Shown here: positions 23,192-40,963 of the stretch, one piece after another | Layout: each line of letters begins with the position of its first letter | Numbering within the stretch: the stretch's first letter is position 1 | Assembly: GCA_020631075.1 (NCBI GenBank) | Contig: JAHDHX010000006.1 | Location: 1-42,242 of the forward strand | Direction: 5' to 3' | Length of the DNA stretch: 42,242 bases | Origin: Candidatus Altimarinota bacterium | GTDB lineage: Bacteria; Patescibacteriota; Gracilibacteria; UBA4473 | Position numbers and translations under genes: made by a program | Notes under the pieces: generated by a model | Database searches by the model: none | What the model was told of the DNA's origin: nothing | The model's input: the letters and a program-made list of their open reading frames with translations, nothing else

Positions 23192-26100
23192 ATGAAAATA
23201 TTAAGAAGAGTTCTGAAAAAACAAAAACGGTATATCTACAAACAGGTACATCAAAAAAAAATCAATTCCATACATGACGATGAAGTCACAAAAGAAAAGG
23301 AACTAGAATTGATTGAAAAAGATGGAGAAAAAGAAATAGCGGGGATAACTTCATCAATAAAGTCCCCAATAAAGCAGCTTATTCAAACTGGATCTGGTCA
23401 AAAAATAGAAGCGTTACAACAATGTACAACCAAAAACATCGAAGCGCTAATAAACGATGATGTAGGGTACACCACAAAAGTGCGATACGCAGAGGATGGC
23501 TCAGTATGGGTAGAGCCAGAACTAGAAAGAGTTCTACGATTATCAGAAAAGGAGCGACTCAGAGAACTACAAAAACGACTGAAGGACAAACCATTTAAAC
23601 TTAATATACAACTCTGGAATGAAGAGACGGATACTCCCACCGATGAAGGGAAAATAGTAATAAAAATACACAAAACAGGAACATGGAACACCGATAGAGC
23701 AGTCGGAAAAACTGGCTATAGCAGACAAGATTTATTGAGAAAACGAGATATGATACTTGTAAAGCTACTGGGCGCCGATGGGACAACTGAACAGCAACTA
23801 GCAACCTGGAAAATACAGAACAGATCGATGGTGAAAATCGCCAATATGATAGTGCAAAACGGATATGCAGGAGAAATACAACCACCGAGTACTCGTTGGG
23901 AAATGTGGACCGCAATACTCAAAGAAAAAGGGCAAGAAGTAGTAGCATTTAACGAATATCGTGACCAAATAGAATCTGTGCCGCTAAGCACAATAGAAGC
24001 GATAAAAAATACTCTCGATATGTGGGACTTCTCAGAAAAATCAGAAGTTATATTGGAAGAATTGGCAAAAATGTCCCCGAAAGATGTCGAAGCTCTGCAT
24101 CATGACGTGTTACAAATTCAAGACTTCTATAAAGAAGAGCATATTCAATGCACAATCAAATCTGGCACAGCCACCATGACACAAGAGTTGTCTGAAAACC
24201 CGCACGGAGGGATGTGGTTCAAGCTACTATTGATTATGGCGCATGAAAACGGAGAAAATATTCCCCCTGGAGTGCTCCAACATCTGTATGAAAATTCAGA
24301 AAAAATAACCCATCTATCTGGTGCAGAAATACCTGACACAGACGCACTCACAGCGGCACAAAAAAATCTACCAGAATCGGAGAAAAGACTCATAAGAGAG
24401 AAACAGTACGAACATTTTATGGTGGCAAACCTTCGAGCGTCTTTACTGATGACGCTGTACGAAAAAGAGGAAGAGCACGGAGCCGAGTTTGAACGATTTT
24501 TTCGAGTGTTCTATCCAAACGATCAAGAGATATTCTCTTACCGCTATGACATCGGACATGGGGAGTCTCTTTATAACTTTTATAAACAGACACAAAGCCT
24601 GGTAAAAAAAGCTGATGCGCTTAATACGCCTGTGAATACACTCCAGACATTATTTTACGAAAAAGATGACACAATAGGTCATATCGTCTGTACGGATGAT
24701 TTTGATATTGCGCTCTTTACCGCTTACAAATCGGATTTGGATCAAGTACCAGATGAAGACTGTCATGGTTCCTACACGACAGAATCACATGCACATAGTT
24801 GCATTGAAGGGTTCTATACCCACCAAAAAAAAATAAAAACGCTGTATAAGAACAACATAAATCGCCTAATCAGGCTAGCAATAATAGATCAGCTGCGTGA
24901 AGGAGAGCTGACCCATGAAGCAACTGCAGAAGTGTCTGAGGACGATATGTTTGGAGAAGAAATACAACGATTTGGTCGCGAACCCTATGGCAGAGCCGTA
25001 CAACAGGTGTTACAAAACCAGTACGAGCAGTCGTGGCCGGGTGAAAAGACCGCGCAAGAAGAATGTAAAAAGTTATGTCTGGAGTTATTTGCGCAAGGAG
25101 GATTTGAAAAACGACGACAAGAATATAAAGCCGCAGACCAAGAAACCCGCGCAGTGCTTGACCGCCTAATGCACCGATCGGAATTGTACCCAGCTGGAAT
25201 TACAGAATTGCTGAAAGGGCTCCAGACCCAACCAGAATTCTTAGCGTTATCATACGACGAAATAGGACAAAAAAGAGAGACCCATCCAAATGATCCAAAC
25301 TGGAAAACCAGGTATTTAGACGATCAAAAAATATTGGCATATAAAAAGGTACCAGATGCAACTATGCTGCTAAGTCACTATGACTATGAATGTGCCTGCA
25401 ATAAAATAATACCAACTGAGACACTGGCAGAACTAAAAAAGCAGCCAAATAAACTCTTAAACCATGTATTAAGCGATCCAATACTGCGAAAATATTTGTT
25501 ACCGCGATATCGGAATGCAGAGCAACACAAAACCAGTGCAAATATTGCCACCCTCAACAGGTATTTAAAGGAAAATAGAGACTTGTTTGAACGGCTGATC
25601 GAGCAGCGGTCACCAGAAAATGATGAAGTAATAGCACTCTTGCTGATCAACGCCGGGGCGCAGAGCCCCCTACGTGTTGAAATGATTAAAGATGACTTTT
25701 TAGACTTTGCAAAACACTGCCTACAACGTGCTCCGAATGCCAGCGAAAGTGCCAACAAAGAATCAATAATAGAACAAATACTAAATTTGTATAAAAAAAT
25801 ACCAGATAATCTACGTATATTTTTAGGGTTTGAAAGCGGAAAAACCATAACAGAAAGAATCGAGAAATTAGAACCAGAAAATAAGGTTCTCGGGAAAGAC
25901 CCCCTTATAAAAGAGCTTACCCATAATGCTTACGCCGATATAATAGCCGACATATCAGCTTTCGAAATTACTGACACAAACCGAAACAAGTTTGAAATGT
26001 TTATCAAAAGTTCTTTGGGCAAAAAAATTTTTGATTTCACAATTAAAAATCCAAAAGCAGTCACAAATAATTGGGACGAAATACAAAATATATATCCAAA

Positions 26101-29100
26101 ATTTTTTGAAGATAACTTAACGGTTTTGTTCGACTACACAATGAAAGAAGATCCTGACAGGGCAGTTAAGAAAATTATTAACCCTTGGAGCCCCGAAAAA
26201 GTCTTGCAGCACTTCAGAAACAGTGTCTTTATGGGGAAGTATCCCTCTAACTCTAAAATCTATATAGCGCTGATACAAAAAATTGGAGCGGATAGTATTT
26301 TAAAATTAATACCTGATGCTTTAGTCTTCCGAATTTATGCAGAACAAAAATCAACACTAACTGAAAAACTAAATGAAACTGATGCTTTTTTCCTGAAATT
26401 ACGTGTAGCACTCAGTGAAGATAATAACTGGCAACCAGAGGAGCTAGTAGAGTATGTATATGGAGAAGAATCTGAAGCCATCGAGCTCAATATCTTGAGG
26501 GACAGATCACTTGCTGAAAAGTATCTGCGTTTTTTCCCCCATGCACATGATAGTGTACCAACAAACAATCAGTTGCTTCTAAATATTGCCACCGACCATG
26601 CTGATTCTTTCATAAGATATTTCCCACATCTAAAATATGCTAACTCAATCACTGGCTATGAAAATATGCTCAAAGAAGCAGCTAGCAAAAGTGCAGAAAA
26701 ATTTTTCAGAAGATTTCCACATCAGCAGCACACAAACATACCCGGCTATAGATCCGCATTAATATCGAGTGGTAAATCCGAGAAAGCTTTCCTCAAAACT
26801 TTCTCACATGCAGAACACTTTCAAAGTCCCGGGTATGAGGAAACGCTGAAAAATGCCGCCCAAAATTCTCCAACAATATTTTTAAAAAAATTCCCACATC
26901 GCCAACTTCATAACAAGTTAAGCTACTATCCAGAATTACTCACGCAGGTGTTTTCACAAATATCAGGGATGAACAATGTCACAGCGGCAGAAATTAAAGC
27001 TGCGTGCAAACTACAATCTGAACCAGCGTTTGAAAATCAAGATATCTTGTCAGAATTTTGTAAGCCTGATACATACCCAAATAATACAATCCTATGGTGG
27101 ATAAGAAATCCGGAACGGCAAGCATTGTTAAGAGATTTGCAATTTTTTCATCCGAAGACACTAGAACTCTACAAACCATCGCCGCTATTTGATTATGAAA
27201 AATACAAGGGATTGAAAACGTACACAGCAACCGAACGTAAACACCTAATTACATGCGCAAAAAAAGTCTGGAACGAGATATACCGACATAAAATAAATTA
27301 CAAATACAATTCACCCATAAATTTTATATTATCAATTGCTGAAAATAAACAAAAAGAGGCTCTCTATGACGAGATATCTCCCTTATATAATGTACAATAT
27401 GACGATAAATACAAAATGAAAGAACTGCACAAGCATGACCAACAATGGATGACAGAATTGCCATCGGCGTTGCTCGAAAGTGTATTGACGTACATGCAAG
27501 AAGCCGAGACTGACAAACACCCACTACCAAAACATCACGAGTTTTTGATTACGTTTGATGGTTGGCTTGAAGCAGAAAAAATTGACCAAACAGACGAAGA
27601 AATAATGAAAATAAAACGGAAGGAGTATGATCAAGGTTTTTCAAAATGGCGTGAACGAAAAAAGTTTTTAGATTTTGTGGAACTCACAAATTATCAGCTA
27701 CAAACACAAGCCGAAGTTGATATCATTAAACGTTTAGCCAAGACACAAAATACTGATGAAGGCGCTCAATTATTTAAATACATGGTAAGCTGTCTTGCGC
27801 CAGAATACACACCTGCTGAGCTGTTGCCAGTATATGAAGTGTATACGAAACGGTTCGGGCTCGCGCAGCTCCCCCTAGTGTTTCGGTACTGTGTAGAGCT
27901 TATGAACGGCACGATAAATCCAGAGATAACAAATATAATAGATCAGGCAGGCGAGAAAGGGATTGACCAACTAAAAACCGTCGTGTTGCAAAACAAACAG
28001 AATCTGATAAATAAAGAAGAGGCGATAGAACCCTCAAAACTGAGTAATCTGGAACTTGAGTCATATAGATATCTGACGCGATTTGATAGTAGTAGCTGGT
28101 CAAGAGGTTATAACTTTCAAGCACTAATACAGGCGTTGTATCAAGGAATAAAAACACAAGAAATTGCTCCGGTAAGCCCAGAGTATCACACACAAGAAAT
28201 ACAACTAAGGGCGACACCCAAAAATGTCGATTTTGAGGTGTTTTTAGTGCCATACAAAAAGCTGACCGCGATGATAGATTATGGCCTCAAACATAAACAG
28301 TTTGAGAACTATCGTGCAGAGGTTGGATCAATATTAGGAACAGACAAAACCCACAAGCAAGCCGCGCTTGACCAAATGACACAACAGCAAGCCACACTCG
28401 AGCAACTGACAACCAGATCTTCGGACCAAGAATCAACACTAAAACAATTAGTGTCTTCAATCCCGCAGTTACGAAAACAAATTTTAAAAAGCGACACACT
28501 AACGCGAAAAATAGAAAAAACGAAAGGTCCGAGTGAACTGGTGGTGGTGTTGTCACAGGCAAAATATCAAACTGCGGAGATGAAACAGCTGATTCAGAGT
28601 CTTATAATCTGGCAGTACATAGAGCAGTATCCAAATATGGAAGAAGAGATCTCACGAATAGTCGCTGAGCCAAAATTACTGATAGAGAACGTACAAACAC
28701 TCAGTGAAATGATAAACCAAAGACTTAAAAACGAACTTTTGGAAGACAAAAGTGTAGGAGCACATCAAGAGGAATCTCTGTTTCCAGAATTAGAAAACAA
28801 ACAACGAGGATATCTACGACAAATGCTAAACACCAACACACTGAAAGACATACAAAAAGCTGTCAGCTTACAAAAAGGCGAATTACTAACTGACTCATTT
28901 GTAATACAGCCCTCGCGTGCGATGATGGGTGAATGCTCCGGGTACATCGGAGATGCTTGCTGGACTACTAATGAACAAATTTTGAAAAACAACCCAGACA
29001 TGACGCCCTATGTGCTCATTAAAGAAAGAGCAACCAATCCGGAACTAATTGGTGCCGGATTACTGTTCGAACGGAGCATAAACAACGGCCAAGATACCGT

Positions 29101-29416
29101 CATGGTGATACGCGGCTTTAATCCACAGTCGAAAGTATTAAGTGATATTTCTGCTGACTCATTTTGTGAAAACCTCTTAGCATATGCAGAGTCCGTAGCA
29201 CAGAAACGTGGATGCAAGTATGTAATCGCTCCGCTTGGCCAAGGAGTTATAAGTAATAGGCCTGAAGTTACATCGTATTTCGTTAATCTTGCACAAAAAA
29301 GATCGAATCAGTCTAAAACAATCGGGAAAAAAATAGCCCTGGATGAAGCACTTAACTTTAATGGATACGACATAACAAACAACTGCGTAGTGATATCTGA
29401 AGTACCTTCGTTCTAG
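23192..29416 (+). CDS. Giant 2074-residue protein of unknown function (element 2 cargo)
   Basis: One unbroken frame of 6225 bp. No signal peptide or membrane helix is seen. The N-terminus is basic (MKILRRVLKKQKRYIYKQ). Residues ~70-1100 are mostly helical and charged, without a motif I recognise. Residues ~1108-1254 hold five ~30-residue repeats with an FPH core. Residues ~1730-1800 are Gln/Leu-rich coiled coil. The last ~180 residues look like a separate compact domain, with MGECSGYIGDACW, LIGAGLLFE, MVIRGFNP and KYVIAPLGQG; the strand-helix pattern faintly recalls GNAT acetyltransferases but no acetyl-CoA loop is convincing. As sole cargo of an integrative element it may be an anti-phage effector or a host-interaction protein; this is inference only. 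Confidence 0.85.
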   Translation: MKILRRVLKKQKRYIYKQVHQKKINSIHDDEVTKEKELELIEKDGEKEIAGITSSIKSPIKQLIQTGSGQKIEALQQCTTKNIEALINDDVGYTTKVRYAEDGSVWVEPELERVLRLSEKERLRELQKRLKDKPFKLNIQLWNEETDTPTDEGKIVIKIHKTGTWNTDRAVGKTGYSRQDLLRKRDMILVKLLGADGTTEQQLATWKIQNRSMVKIANMIVQNGYAGEIQPPSTRWEMWTAILKEKGQEVVAFNEYRDQIESVPLSTIEAIKNTLDMWDFSEKSEVILEELAKMSPKDVEALHHDVLQIQDFYKEEHIQCTIKSGTATMTQELSENPHGGMWFKLLLIMAHENGENIPPGVLQHLYENSEKITHLSGAEIPDTDALTAAQKNLPESEKRLIREKQYEHFMVANLRASLLMTLYEKEEEHGAEFERFFRVFYPNDQEIFSYRYDIGHGESLYNFYKQTQSLVKKADALNTPVNTLQTLFYEKDDTIGHIVCTDDFDIALFTAYKSDLDQVPDEDCHGSYTTESHAHSCIEGFYTHQKKIKTLYKNNINRLIRLAIIDQLREGELTHEATAEVSEDDMFGEEIQRFGREPYGRAVQQVLQNQYEQSWPGEKTAQEECKKLCLELFAQGGFEKRRQEYKAADQETRAVLDRLMHRSELYPAGITELLKGLQTQPEFLALSYDEIGQKRETHPNDPNWKTRYLDDQKILAYKKVPDATMLLSHYDYECACNKIIPTETLAELKKQPNKLLNHVLSDPILRKYLLPRYRNAEQHKTSANIATLNRYLKENRDLFERLIEQRSPENDEVIALLLINAGAQSPLRVEMIKDDFLDFAKHCLQRAPNASESANKESIIEQILNLYKKIPDNLRIFLGFESGKTITERIEKLEPENKVLGKDPLIKELTHNAYADIIADISAFEITDTNRNKFEMFIKSSLGKKIFDFTIKNPKAVTNNWDEIQNIYPKFFEDNLTVLFDYTMKEDPDRAVKKIINPWSPEKVLQHFRNSVFMGKYPSNSKIYIALIQKIGADSILKLIPDALVFRIYAEQKSTLTEKLNETDAFFLKLRVALSEDNNWQPEELVEYVYGEESEAIELNILRDRSLAEKYLRFFPHAHDSVPTNNQLLLNIATDHADSFIRYFPHLKYANSITGYENMLKEAASKSAEKFFRRFPHQQHTNIPGYRSALISSGKSEKAFLKTFSHAEHFQSPGYEETLKNAAQNSPTIFLKKFPHRQLHNKLSYYPELLTQVFSQISGMNNVTAAEIKAACKLQSEPAFENQDILSEFCKPDTYPNNTILWWIRNPERQALLRDLQFFHPKTLELYKPSPLFDYEKYKGLKTYTATERKHLITCAKKVWNEIYRHKINYKYNSPINFILSIAENKQKEALYDEISPLYNVQYDDKYKMKELHKHDQQWMTELPSALLESVLTYMQEAETDKHPLPKHHEFLITFDGWLEAEKIDQTDEEIMKIKRKEYDQGFSKWRERKKFLDFVELTNYQLQTQAEVDIIKRLAKTQNTDEGAQLFKYMVSCLAPEYTPAELLPVYEVYTKRFGLAQLPLVFRYCVELMNGTINPEITNIIDQAGEKGIDQLKTVVLQNKQNLINKEEAIEPSKLSNLELESYRYLTRFDSSSWSRGYNFQALIQALYQGIKTQEIAPVSPEYHTQEIQLRATPKNVDFEVFLVPYKKLTAMIDYGLKHKQFENYRAEVGSILGTDKTHKQAALDQMTQQQATLEQLTTRSSDQESTLKQLVSSIPQLRKQILKSDTLTRKIEKTKGPSELVVVLSQAKYQTAEMKQLIQSLIIWQYIEQYPNMEEEISRIVAEPKLLIENVQTLSEMINQRLKNELLEDKSVGAHQEESLFPELENKQRGYLRQMLNTNTLKDIQKAVSLQKGELLTDSFVIQPSRAMMGECSGYIGDACWTTNEQILKNNPDMTPYVLIKERATNPELIGAGLLFERSINNGQDTVMVIRGFNPQSKVLSDISADSFCENLLAYAESVAQKRGCKYVIAPLGQGVISNRPEVTSYFVNLAQKRSNQSKTIGKKIALDEALNFNGYDITNNCVVISEVPSF
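26513..26955 (+). repeat. Five FPH protein repeats in the giant gene
   Basis: Encodes residues ~1108-1254. Successive units read AEKYLRFFPH, ADSFIRYFPH, AEKFFRRFPH, EKAFLKTFSH and PTIFLKKFPH. Each is followed by a variable segment, often with P/TGYxxxLxxAA, and a new unit begins every 29-31 residues. Two-helix solenoid units are likely. The DNA copies are diverged, so this is an old duplication. Confidence 0.75.
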
Positions 29417-37041: not shown

Positions 37042-39375
37042 CTACGCACTCTTCTCACCCACGGTCAGATACTCAGGAATGAATTTCCCAGATAGAATTT
37101 CACCTCGCCCCCGCAGCAACGGCAAGTCACTCACCGCAATTTTTCCCACATAGAGCTCTGCCAGGTTCCCTCCCCGCGCCACAAAACGCTCTATGTCCAG
37201 CAACCCACGGAAATACAACGAATCCTTGGTAAACACTCCCCCGCGACTGGTGTCACGCAGCCCGCGTTTGGCTTTCAGGCAATGCTTCCACGCCAGTTCT
37301 GGCGGCAGTTCATACGTCTCCCTCAGGGTCAGGTATAAATCCCGAAACCCCATGTCCCGCCCCAGATAAATCGCCACCACGTGCAACGCAGGGCTGAGAT
37401 ACTTCCACCCCAGCGCCAGCCCCAGCTGGTTTTGGTTATACACCGCCAGTCCTTCCTCTGTCTGCAAGTACCCCGCCGTCCCCCGACGCAGCAGCGCATA
37501 CGGCTGGCGTCGTCCATTTTCATACCGAAACACATGGGTCGCCACCTCGTGCGCCATCAGCGCCCGCAGTCGGTTTCGGCGAAAGGTCGCCCCCGCCTTA
37601 AAGAGGATCACGTTGCGTTTGGTCACCTGCATATCGGCCACCGTGTTGTCGATCACTTTCAGCTGCCAGTGCCCCAATTTATACTGCCGTAGGTACGCCT
37701 CCGTCGCCTTCATCGCTTGCTTCAGCGACCACTCCTCACTGTCATCTGCCACCAGCGGGCGACTACTGGCCAGTCTCTCGCTGGCCCGACGGTGCACATT
37801 CCCCGTCACCGTGCCATACACCGCTTCCGCCGCCGCCGCAAAACCCTCCGTGCCCACCATTTCTATCATCGTCAAGGTATGCTCTATCTCTCGTACCTTA
37901 CGGGCATAAAGGGGCACCAAAGGATGGTCAAACTCTAACGGCAATTTTTTCAGGTCACGACGCAAACCGTCGATGTCTAAGCTCCGCTCCCGATACACCC
38001 ACTGCGGGTCAAACCCACCCCCACCGAGGAAAAGCTCCCGCTGCTCTTCTATATTTTGCGGGTTGATGTGACTCAGCACTTTAATCTCTTTGGCTATTTC
38101 TTCAAGTTTTTCGTCTAAACTCGTCAGACGCTTACTCTGCGTCTGTTCTCGCATCAGGGTCGGCGCTGCCAGTGGCTTGCGCGGGTCGAGGTAAAATTGC
38201 CCCAGCTCACGCAGGCTCAGCCTCATCCCCACCCCCGGGGGCAACTCGGCGATCTCCACCGGCAGTTTGAGACGCTCGCCCCCCAGCGCAATGTCCGCAA
38301 TCGGCTTGCTGTACCCCTCTACATTGATCTGGTGCCCCCCAGGTTCGAGGCTCATCTGCGCCAGCAACGTCAACGTCTTGCCCTCGTTGTACAGCTCTAT
38401 GTACTCCTCTGGCCCCACCACTGGTCGGTCCAGGGTTGACTCCGCTTCCCCCCCCGCTCGCTGCCGAAACAGTTGCTGCGCTATCTGCACCCCTTCCTCC
38501 GCCGAGTGGATGGTCAAATCTTCCACCTTGTTGAGCCGCGCTTTGAGCGGCACCTTATTCGCGATCTGGATTTTAAGCCCCGCCCGCGCGTTGAGTTCCA
38601 GCACCTTCACCCCCTGCGGGGTCAGCACCATGTCCACCCCCAGATAGCCAATGTCACTGAGCGTCTGCACCCGACTCGCCGTCAGCAGCACCTCCTGCCA
38701 GTGCGGCACCGTGAATCCCACCGCACTCACACCGTTGGGCATCTTTCGTATATATTTTTTATAATACGCCCCCCCGGTCGTTTGGCCCGTGGCAATGTCA
38801 ACCCCCAGTGCCACCGCCCCCAGCTCCATATTCGCTTTCCCCTCTGACTCATACGTCGGCACCCGCACCATCGCCAGCACTGGCACTCGGTTAAAGACAA
38901 TCACGCGGATATCAGGCAAACCCACCTCACAGAGTGTCGCCAGCTCACGGTGCATCTCCAGCCGCTCTTCGATGATCACCCTATCCCCCACCCCACTTAT
39001 CGAATACTTCCCCTCCAAGATCTCTATACAGTGGCGAAACATCTGGTCACGGCTCACCTTGCGGCCACTGGCCGTCACCCACCCCGTTGGTGTCCCTTCG
39101 GTTATGACGAGGATCCCCCCACCCCCAAACCCCTTGTTCGGTTTCAGCACAAAGCTCTCTGGCAACGCATCCCAAAACTCTGGTGTCAGCTGTTGGTACT
39201 TACTCACCACGTGGTACAGCTTCGCCACCCCCACCCCCCGCGACTCCAGAAACTGCTTCGTGTAAAGCTTATTATCCGCAAACCGCTTTGATTCTGGTGA
39301 ATTATAACGCGAGATATACTGCAGATTACGGGCATTCATGCCCAAAATCCCCGAAGCCTGTCGCCAGAAACTCAT
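37042..39375 (-). CDS. Fusion of ATP-grasp (alpha-L-glutamate ligase-like) and QEGLA-type metallopeptidase (DUF1704/MATCAP-like)
   Basis: 777 residues. Residues ~1-300 are an ATP-grasp ligase of the RimK-related 'alpha-L-glutamate ligase-like' group: FVLKPNKGFGGGGILVI at ~75-91, RVIIEERL near 132, DIRVIVFN, and the metal-binding end GVDMVLTPQGVKVLELNARAGL (~243-264). A linker follows to ~400. The C-terminal ~370 residues match the QEGLA-motif family (TIGR02421/DUF1704): HEVATH at 609-614 (HExxxH zinc site) and TEEGLA at 639-644. Human MATCAP tyrosine carboxypeptidase belongs to this family. In other bacteria the two parts are separate genes next to a 7TM transglutaminase-like gene, matching the upstream neighbour here. 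Starts within the neighbour's stop (ATGA). Probable peptide-bond-forming and peptide-trimming enzyme. Confidence 0.85.
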   Translation of the reverse strand: MSFWRQASGILGMNARNLQYISRYNSPESKRFADNKLYTKQFLESRGVGVAKLYHVVSKYQQLTPEFWDALPESFVLKPNKGFGGGGILVITEGTPTGWVTASGRKVSRDQMFRHCIEILEGKYSISGVGDRVIIEERLEMHRELATLCEVGLPDIRVIVFNRVPVLAMVRVPTYESEGKANMELGAVALGVDIATGQTTGGAYYKKYIRKMPNGVSAVGFTVPHWQEVLLTASRVQTLSDIGYLGVDMVLTPQGVKVLELNARAGLKIQIANKVPLKARLNKVEDLTIHSAEEGVQIAQQLFRQRAGGEAESTLDRPVVGPEEYIELYNEGKTLTLLAQMSLEPGGHQINVEGYSKPIADIALGGERLKLPVEIAELPPGVGMRLSLRELGQFYLDPRKPLAAPTLMREQTQSKRLTSLDEKLEEIAKEIKVLSHINPQNIEEQRELFLGGGGFDPQWVYRERSLDIDGLRRDLKKLPLEFDHPLVPLYARKVREIEHTLTMIEMVGTEGFAAAAEAVYGTVTGNVHRRASERLASSRPLVADDSEEWSLKQAMKATEAYLRQYKLGHWQLKVIDNTVADMQVTKRNVILFKAGATFRRNRLRALMAHEVATHVFRYENGRRQPYALLRRGTAGYLQTEEGLAVYNQNQLGLALGWKYLSPALHVVAIYLGRDMGFRDLYLTLRETYELPPELAWKHCLKAKRGLRDTSRGGVFTKDSLYFRGLLDIERFVARGGNLAELYVGKIAVSDLPLLRGRGEILSGKFIPEYLTVGEKSA

Positions 39376-40955
39376 TCTTCGCTGGTCCCTTCATCAAACA
39401 GTGCCCGAAACTTCAGGTACTCACTCAACCGCAACCCAGTGTATTGCCCCAAAGCATAGTTGAGTATAATCGGCGCTAAGATCCACTCTGGTTTTGACAG
39501 CACCAGACTCTTCACCAAAGGCCACGTCACGAGCAGATACCCCACGATCGCCACCAACACAGTTTCCCCCGCCGTGATGGCCGCCTTTTTGACTCCACCC
39601 GTCGACTGCGCCGCCAAGAATTTCTCCGACACCGTCGCCATCACCAGCATGGGGAAGATCGCCAGCGACAGGTCAAGCGATGTCCCGATAGCGACCGCCA
39701 GCGCCAGCACCAGAAAGAACGACAACGCCAGCACACTGAGCGTTAAGCTCACCTTGGGGATGTACAAAATCTCCACCCGAGCAAACACCAGACGGATCAG
39801 GAGACTCACCGCCAAGATTACCGCAAAGACCAATAAGCCAAATTCCAGCCCCAGCACGAGGAAGCTCACCCCGAGCATCAAGGGCGTAAACACCCCAAAG
39901 GTCGACACCCCCACAAACTGCCGAAAAAAGGAAATCACCACCGCAATAAACGGCACCGCTAAGAGCAGATAGACGACGTTCTGCGAGATTCCATTCGCCA
40001 CAAAGTGCGACAACAAACGAGAAATAACCAAGAGCGGATTCGTTTTCAGTCGCTCATCGACGACCAGATACTCTATCCCCCGCTCTGTCAGCGAGTCCTG
40101 CAGGCTCAGTCTATCCCCCGTGCGAAAGATCGCCCCCAAGGCGTCACTCCGCGTCAGCAAGATCGCCGCTGGCCCCACCGTCGCAAAGACAGGCTGCACC
40201 AGCTTCTGCGCTTGGCTGAGAGGAGTTTCCGTCAGCGCCACCCACAGCTTCCCTTTCGGGTCAAACTTCGCTTCGGTGCTCGTCCGCTGCCACAGTTGCC
40301 CAAACGCCTGCGCATCGTCCAGCGGCCCCGCCGCCCAGATCACCGTGTCACTCTCCCGCAACGTTTCCCAGTTTTCTTGATACAACCGTTCATACGCCTC
40401 TTCCGTGCTAAACCCCGAAGCCCCCACCGGCACCTCCAGCTGTCGCAGCCAAAACCCCATCGACTCCGCTTGGTCGATAAGGTTTCGCTGCGCAGTGTCT
40501 GCCCCCGCCGTAATGATCACCCCCCGACGGTTATACACCGTCACCACTCGCTTCACGGACTCAGCAAAGTCCCCCTGCGTCACCCGCAGCGTCACTTCAT
40601 AGCGCCCAGGCGCGGTGTAGACATATTCCACATTTTTTCCACTTTCCACACCTTGTCCCACCCCGAAATCCCACTGGTACTCCACCGTCCCCGCGGCCGG
40701 GTTTTCCACCGTGGTGTTCCCCGCATCAAACACCATGCCTTCCCCGAGCCGCACATAGTCATTCGCCGTGATCGACGGCCGCACCGCCCGCGACTTCGCC
40801 GTCACCGCAAAGGCTTCTGACGCCACTCGCCGTTGTGATTCCAGTGTTGGCGGTGTTTCTATTTCTGCCTCATCCGCCTGCGCACACACCCCTCCCCCCT
40901 CCAGAGAGAAGGACAAGACCAGTCCCAGCCAACACAGAGTTTTCCACCGTTTCAT
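39372..40955 (-). CDS. Signal peptide, PKD-like and 7TM (transglutaminase-associated) membrane protein
   Basis: 527 residues from the ATG at 40955. Signal peptide at 1-26 (KRWKTLCWLGLVLSFSL). PKD-like beta domain at ~58-145, with AGTVEYQWDFG and YTAPGRYEVTLRV. An alpha/beta domain of unknown type at ~147-310. Then about seven membrane helices at ~325-505, with GVSTFGVFTPLMLGVSF and ALGQYTGLRLSEYLKFR, signatures of the 7TM region usually fused to an inactive transglutaminase domain (PF14402). That domain is not recognisable here; PKD plus the alpha/beta domain take its place. It is co-transcribed with the downstream ATP-grasp/peptidase fusion through a 4-bp overlap, so it is probably its membrane partner. 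A GTG at 40958 is an alternative start. Confidence 0.8.
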   Translation of the reverse strand: MKRWKTLCWLGLVLSFSLEGGGVCAQADEAEIETPPTLESQRRVASEAFAVTAKSRAVRPSITANDYVRLGEGMVFDAGNTTVENPAAGTVEYQWDFGVGQGVESGKNVEYVYTAPGRYEVTLRVTQGDFAESVKRVVTVYNRRGVIITAGADTAQRNLIDQAESMGFWLRQLEVPVGASGFSTEEAYERLYQENWETLRESDTVIWAAGPLDDAQAFGQLWQRTSTEAKFDPKGKLWVALTETPLSQAQKLVQPVFATVGPAAILLTRSDALGAIFRTGDRLSLQDSLTERGIEYLVVDERLKTNPLLVISRLLSHFVANGISQNVVYLLLAVPFIAVVISFFRQFVGVSTFGVFTPLMLGVSFLVLGLEFGLLVFAVILAVSLLIRLVFARVEILYIPKVSLTLSVLALSFFLVLALAVAIGTSLDLSLAIFPMLVMATVSEKFLAAQSTGGVKKAAITAGETVLVAIVGYLLVTWPLVKSLVLSKPEWILAPIILNYALGQYTGLRLSEYLKFRALFDEGTSEE

Positions 40956-40963
40956 CACCTTGC

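Follow-up and report, generated by a model that had tools for sequence, protein, structure and literature searches.

What does an enzyme that joins a ligase and a peptidase in one polypeptide write onto, and what does it trim? The question is raised by two adjacent genes in the window, the whole 42,242-nucleotide stretch of contig JAHDHX010000006.1 (assembly GCA_020631075.1) analyzed here, which belongs to a 1.46-Mb, 96% complete, 50-contig genome of Candidatus Altimarinota bacterium (Gracilibacteria, Candidate Phyla Radiation). Both genes, like all features described for them below, lie on the minus strand, with a 4-bp overlap between them. The upstream gene (39372..40958) encodes a membrane protein of 528 residues, and the downstream gene (37042..39375) encodes a 777-residue fusion composed of an ATP-grasp ligase, a degenerate retropepsin, and a MATCAP carboxypeptidase. 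The fusion is likely a three-domain, Rlo-derived writer-eraser, with the product of the adjacent gene as its substrate.

Domain composition of the fusion

The fusion is a single uninterrupted open reading frame (ORF), with Pfam assignments and full-length homologues supporting its composition. Its N-terminal domain (residues 16-285; 38521..39330) is an RloC-type ATP-grasp ligase by the PF14397 and TIGR02291 profiles and by residue conservation. The PF14397 (ATPgrasp_ST) score of 199.5 bits lies far above the curated cut-off of 31.4, and the catalytic residues are kept, with K40, K78, E136, D155, R157, D248, E260, and N262 invariant in the alignment of 78 fusions.

The C-terminal domain (residues 455-755; 37111..38013) belongs to the MATCAP/QEGLA zinc carboxypeptidases, scoring 146.5 bits against PF08014 (curated cut-off 27) and 158.9 bits against the QEGLA subfamily model TIGR02421, below its equivalog cut-off of 338.65. 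An AlphaFold2 (AF2) model was obtained for residues 296-777 (predicted local distance difference test score 93.8) and compared by fold with VIA Z scores; its C-terminal part matches human MATCAP (7z5g) with a Z of 26.6 over 285 residues (root-mean-square deviation 2.7). Three motifs characterize the domain: the zinc motif HEVATH (residues 609-614; 37534..37551), in which H609, E610, and H614 are invariant in all 78 fusions; the third zinc ligand motif TEEGLA (residues 639-644; 37444..37461), equally invariant at E641 and G642 and also present in human MATCAP; and a KRG...D(T/S)...FTKD..Y motif (residues 703-721; 37213..37269), aligned to 7z5g and invariant at K703, R704, G705, and Y721. The domain is thus a predicted zinc metallocarboxypeptidase with an intact site. 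A preliminary description of this DNA had placed an ATP-grasp ligase and a QEGLA/MATCAP peptidase in one protein with HEVATH and TEEGLA intact, which these profiles and alignments bear out; it had overlooked that the fusion comprises three domains rather than two, the linker being a degenerate retropepsin.

This third domain occupies the 110-residue stretch between the two enzymes and corresponds to an RloA/RimB-like retropepsin, predicted to be inactive (residues ~315-403; 38167..38433). A search of the linker against solved structures by sequence alone returned no match, and the domain was recognized through Pfam scans of individual family members together with the structure model. By fold, the linker matches RloA2 (9g59; Z 10.7, 84 residues, 2.4 Å), Lpg0085 (2pma; Z 10.6), and RloA (9g58; Z 10.4), followed at lower rank by foamy virus protease (Z 8.0) and Ddi1 (Z 7.0). 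Of 35 homologous linker domains scanned, several matched aspartyl-protease families, gag-asp_proteas in 8 (best E 2.6e-4) and Asp_protease_2 in 7, with weak matches to RVP and to PF05618, the latter in one domain (E 0.093); neither the 777-residue protein nor the rest of its genome has a PF05618 match. At the catalytic D-[T/S]-G position the sequence reads S-L-E here (residues 342-344; 38344..38352), and just 6 of the 78 fusions in the alignment keep the motif. Counted by rows, it is gone from 75/81 three-domain proteins and kept in 35/37 two-domain ligase-retropepsin proteins of other Patescibacteria. The retropepsin of the fusion is therefore predicted to be catalytically dead.

The membrane partner and its encoded glutamate tail

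The partner, assigned from its ORF and Pfam matches, is composed of an N-terminal hydrophobic segment acting as signal or anchor, a PKD domain, an alpha/beta domain, and a seven-transmembrane (7TM) domain. The PKD domain (residues 56-143; 40530..40793) scores 47.8 bits against PF18911 and matches the ColG PKD domain (4aqo) with a Z of 14.2. The alpha/beta domain (residues 146-308; 40035..40523) shows a Rossmann-like order of elements in the AF2 secondary structure; a profile search against the Protein Data Bank (PDB) gave nothing significant for its family, a fold search with the whole model returned PKD matches, and weak ANF_receptor matches in 3/54 homologues provide a lead only. The RloB-type 7TM domain (residues 325-520; 39399..39986) scores 107.1 bits against PF14402 (cut-off 25). 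The inactive transglutaminase domain PF14400, found in Legionella RloB, is absent from all 54 partner proteins at E <= 0.1, in agreement with the PKD-7TM architecture lacking a transglutaminase that had been proposed from the sequence. Based on the positive-inside charge pattern, the C-terminus of the partner is predicted to be cytosolic, on the same side as the ligase.

That C-terminus ends in an encoded Glu-Glu (residues 527-528; 39375..39380), likewise missed in the preliminary description and proposed here as a glutamylation acceptor on the basis of its conservation. Across 80 fusion-bearing rows, representing 79 genomes with one species counted twice, the last residue of the partner is glutamate in every case (80/80) and the last two are Glu-Glu in 74. 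A terminal glutamate occurs in 5/36 partners of two-domain proteins and in 6.7% of 682 neighbouring ORFs taken as background. Within the fused set, the last position does not vary (entropy 0 bits) and the preceding one varies little (0.48 bits), compared with 2.6-3.5 bits at positions -3 to -8, and the encoded glutamate run spans one to five residues.

The Glu-Glu ending was then predicted in advance for the recoded members of the class. Fetching 40 further partner genes yielded 37 unseen tails, 27 of them from genomes reading UGA as glycine; in-frame UGA codons occur in some genomes of the same class, a recoding expected for Gracilibacteria. The predicted ending was seen in 34 of these 37 tails, the exceptions being the partners in genomes G126, G143, and G026. 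In G026 (L029:4380-6896 and L200), the ATP-grasp domain lacks its glycine-rich and ELNARAG motifs and the partner tail reads DDEEV, as if the ligase had died and the partner tail had drifted.

Two further variants concern the individual genes. In G122, an RloB-like partner (L115:2872-5070) carries a long glutamate-rich segment (residues ~40-240) ahead of its PKD domain and shares an operon with an intact RloA-type retropepsin, of which it could itself be a substrate. In G002:C18, G013:C20, G015:C5, and G035:C4 (L028), the fusion gene is broken by a stop codon or frameshift, through either assembly error or decay.

Distribution and evolutionary series

The whole 777-residue query finds a match in 52/60 relatives, and a scan of GTDB contigs recovered 80 fusion loci, 78 of them full-length and from independent assemblies. 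Because full-length fusions recur in this way, an assembly join or chance fusion can be rejected; the preliminary description had named a sequencing or assembly error as one way in which its proposal could fail, and the occurrence of the same fusion throughout bacteria as another. On the second point, the fusion is common within part of the Patescibacteria. The loci are titled Gracilibacteria, Peregrinibacteria, Peribacteria, Magasanikbacteria, Uhrbacteria, and Parcubacteria, and those titled Nitrospirota and Kiritimatiellales are probably mislabelled bins. A survey of 145 genomes of the class found MATCAP in 118, mostly in frames of ~770-850 residues, and the 7TM domain in 111. None of the 124 plasmid records matching the ligase or the peptidase carries the fused form, with no match covering 80%, and none was found in phage or viral-contig collections, with no relative at all among the viral contigs. 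A collection of open-access papers yielded no earlier report of the fusion.

Linkage between the two genes is strong, with the PKD-7TM partner directly upstream of the fusion gene in 71/80 loci. Five species with an unlinked fusion encode the partner elsewhere in the genome. In one clade (L070, L087, L101, and L111), the fusion gene lies away from its partner, near the leucine-biosynthesis genes leuD and leuA.

A survey of 286 Patescibacteria genomes, with inspection of 40 loci, revealed an evolutionary series. One genome of the class, reading UGA as glycine, encodes the PKD-7TM protein, the ligase, and an N-terminally anchored retropepsin with a DTGA motif as separate proteins. Many other Patescibacteria possess a two-domain ligase-retropepsin protein adjoining the 7TM gene, and a separate MATCAP gene adjoins the two-domain locus in L128, L136, L139, L143, L144, L150, and L160. 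The two-domain proteins without D-[T/S]-G are those of L143 and L144, both of which have an adjacent MATCAP gene. On the simplest reading, the zinc peptidase took over from the aspartic one. On the best ligase tree two changes are needed for the fusion, which may have a single origin. A separate variant (L157:3911-6673) is a 921-residue ligase-retropepsin with ~460 extra C-terminal residues and an active DTG retained.

Elsewhere in the window, a 22-kb stretch of lower guanine-cytosine (GC) content (8000-30000; ~0.33-0.48 against 0.52-0.62 in the flanks) looks like an integrated mobile element. Its genes encode a terminase, an MmeI-type restriction-modification protein, two DNA methylases, a Schlafen/AlbA_2 protein, a helicase, a T5orf172 protein, and a serine recombinase; at its end, a 2,074-residue ORF (23192-29416) has no Pfam match at E <= 0.001.

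A candidate glutamylation module, its alternatives, and known systems

The computed features comprise the domain identities, the intact ligase and zinc sites, the loss of the aspartic site, the gene linkage, and the near-invariant terminal glutamate; we infer which amino acid is added, which protein accepts it, which way regulation runs, and what the physiology is. We hold it reasonably probable that fusion and partner form a reversible C-terminal glutamylation module derived from a Rlo/Rim-type system. The ATP-grasp domain would ligate glutamate onto the encoded -Glu-Glu terminus of the 7TM partner on the cytosolic side, and the product would probably be poly-alpha-glutamate, as made by RimK on ribosomal protein S6, the amino acid being suggested by the ligase family. 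The MATCAP domain of the same chain would remove C-terminal glutamates and so set the length of the tail. The retropepsin, presumably once a glutamate-tail protease, has lost its motif and may be kept as a scaffold or ligase activator; if so, its retention would be explained by a preserved RimB-like activating role or by holding of the tail. On the extracytoplasmic side, the PKD and alpha/beta domains presumably serve in sensing or binding at the cell surface, and the state of the tail would couple this to the cell interior. The earlier proposal that ligation and trimming of a C-terminus reside in one chain is consistent with the invariant active-site residues and with the human relatives: human MATCAP proteins trim single C-terminal residues, shorten glutamate chains as deglutamylases, and use tubulin as a substrate (PMC10499314). 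For the bacterial chain, both activities are predicted ones.

Several observations weigh against this interpretation. TIGR02291 (RloC-like ligase) is by far the top ligase model, and the ligase domain scores 245.5 bits against it, under the equivalog cut-off of 314.2. In G126 and G143, the fusion is intact and yet the glutamate tail is absent. Two-domain relatives retain the ligase with the glutamate tail mostly absent from the 7TM protein, and since the ligase there lacks such a tail on its neighbour, it may use another acceptor; the tail of Legionella RloB reads ARS. Moreover, a tree-aware sign test of fusion against glutamate tail could reach no significance with only 1-3 independent pairs, and since no more than two changes on the ligase tree are required for the fusion, few independent events underlie its association with the tail.

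Four alternatives were weighed against a reversibly glutamylated partner. In the first, the ligase produces polyglutamate, either free or attached to a small molecule, as an osmolyte or a polymer of the envelope; the 7TM protein handles or exports it and MATCAP degrades it, with -Glu-Glu acting as a docking or regulatory element only. Such chemistry has precedent in RimK, which also yields free poly-alpha-glutamate under stimulation by RimB (PMC11957791), and the rlo operon has osmotic and envelope-related phenotypes (PMC12239564). Production of a polymer does not, however, predict a terminal residue of 0 bits beside variable positions, and export would face competition from a carboxypeptidase located in the cytosol on the same chain as the ligase; we judge this explanation unlikely.

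Less probable still is a cycle in which the encoded -Glu-Glu, whether on the partner or on other proteins, is trimmed by MATCAP and restored by the ligase one residue at a time, giving a one- or two-residue on/off switch without chains, like the detyrosination and retyrosination of tubulin. Human MATCAP indeed takes off both single residues and chains at the C-terminus (PMC10499314), and the encoded run of only one to five glutamates would suit such a switch, but RimK, the closest characterized ligase, is processive (PMC11957791).

A cytosolic target of the fused enzyme, FtsZ or for instance S6, with the membrane partner serving only as anchor or sensor, appears very improbable. The preliminary description had linked the peptidase to FtsZ, a tubulin homologue encoded nearby though with a different C-terminus; ftsA and ftsZ lie a few kilobases away in the window, and the human homologue acts on tubulin. 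This link finds no support among relatives, none of which (0/80) has ftsZ and ftsA within 6 kb; FtsZ here ends in NKLRR, and the adjacent 7TM protein is the likely substrate. Ribosomal protein S6 of the same genome was rejected as a substrate, its C-terminus DAKTSL having no terminal glutamate.

Finally, the idea that the terminal glutamate codons (GAG/GAA) are the ribosome-binding site of an overlapping fusion gene, suggested by frequent gene overlaps of 1-4 bp, deserves almost no credence and is refuted as a general explanation, since glutamate also ends the partner at fused loci whose gap exceeds 60 nt (18/18) and where the partner gene is unlinked (5/5), the codons are mostly GAA with a Shine-Dalgarno core in only 29/79, and two-domain loci with gaps <= 15 nt end in glutamate in only 4/27.

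For a reversibly glutamylated partner, the significance lies in the acceptor. The 2025 rlo and rim papers did not settle which substrate the RloA/RloC pathway has in the cell, with S6 as the only known case of bacterial C-terminal polyglutamylation; the near-invariant -Glu-Glu of an adjacent membrane protein is a concrete candidate acceptor and, if true, would add to S6 a second class of natural protein substrates for C-terminal alpha-glutamylation in bacteria. The series from separate through two-domain to three-domain proteins, in which an aspartic glutamate-tail protease appears to have been retired for a MATCAP-type zinc carboxypeptidase, supports glutamate trimming as an ancestral activity of the human family that trims tubulin. 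The broader proposal, on which we are evenly divided, is that bacteria possess a counterpart of the tubulin code, in which a membrane protein is reversibly polyglutamylated at its C-terminus, with an ATP-dependent writer and a metallocarboxypeptidase eraser in one polypeptide; the earlier fused eraser, a retropepsin, would have died and given way to a MATCAP-type enzyme while the acceptor gained a nearly invariant -Glu-Glu end.

Among known systems, the rlo operon of Pseudomonas and Legionella comes closest; it encodes an ATP-grasp protein, a 7TM inactive transglutaminase, and a retropepsin that is secreted. In this operon, RloA cleaves polyglutamate and loss of rloA is suppressed by deletion of rloB or rloC (PMC12239564). 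The preliminary description had instead taken separate ATP-grasp, QEGLA peptidase, and 7TM-inactive transglutaminase genes as the known neighbourhood; QEGLA occurs in a different setting, in Sinorhizobium, where its own gene lies next to one for a glutathione-synthase-like ATP-grasp. The present locus shares with the rlo operon a TIGR02291/PF14397-type ATP-grasp, a PF14402 7TM protein, and a retropepsin of the RloA fold. The rlo retropepsin is separate, secreted, and active, whereas here it is fused to a cytosolic ligase with its motif lost, a MATCAP carboxypeptidase is added, and the 7TM protein carries PKD and alpha/beta domains in place of the inactive transglutaminase, plus a Glu-Glu tail.

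In the Rim system, RimK extends the C-terminus of S6 and the retropepsin RimB trims it, binding and stimulating RimK, and natural RimBK hybrids place an active retropepsin N-terminal to the ligase (PMC11957791). The likeness consists in a ligase coupled to a glutamate-tail retropepsin, in RimBK within one chain, and in a protein acceptor with an encoded terminal glutamate. Here, in contrast to RimBK, the ligase precedes a dead protease and a metallopeptidase is added, and a membrane protein takes the place of S6 as the likely acceptor. With human MATCAP/TMCP (KIAA0895, KIAA0895L) and bacterial QEGLA proteins, the carboxypeptidase domain shares the fold, the HExxxH and EEG zinc site, and the KRG..DT..F.KD..Y motif, but it is fused to its presumed antagonist ligase in a setting where tubulin is absent. 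The eukaryotic tubulin code, in which TTLL polyglutamylases face MATCAP and CCP carboxypeptidases, likewise opposes an ATP-dependent glutamate ligase to a metallocarboxypeptidase at a C-terminal tail; here writer and eraser share one polypeptide and the proposed substrate is a bacterial membrane protein, a parallel drawn with no claim of homology at the level of the system.

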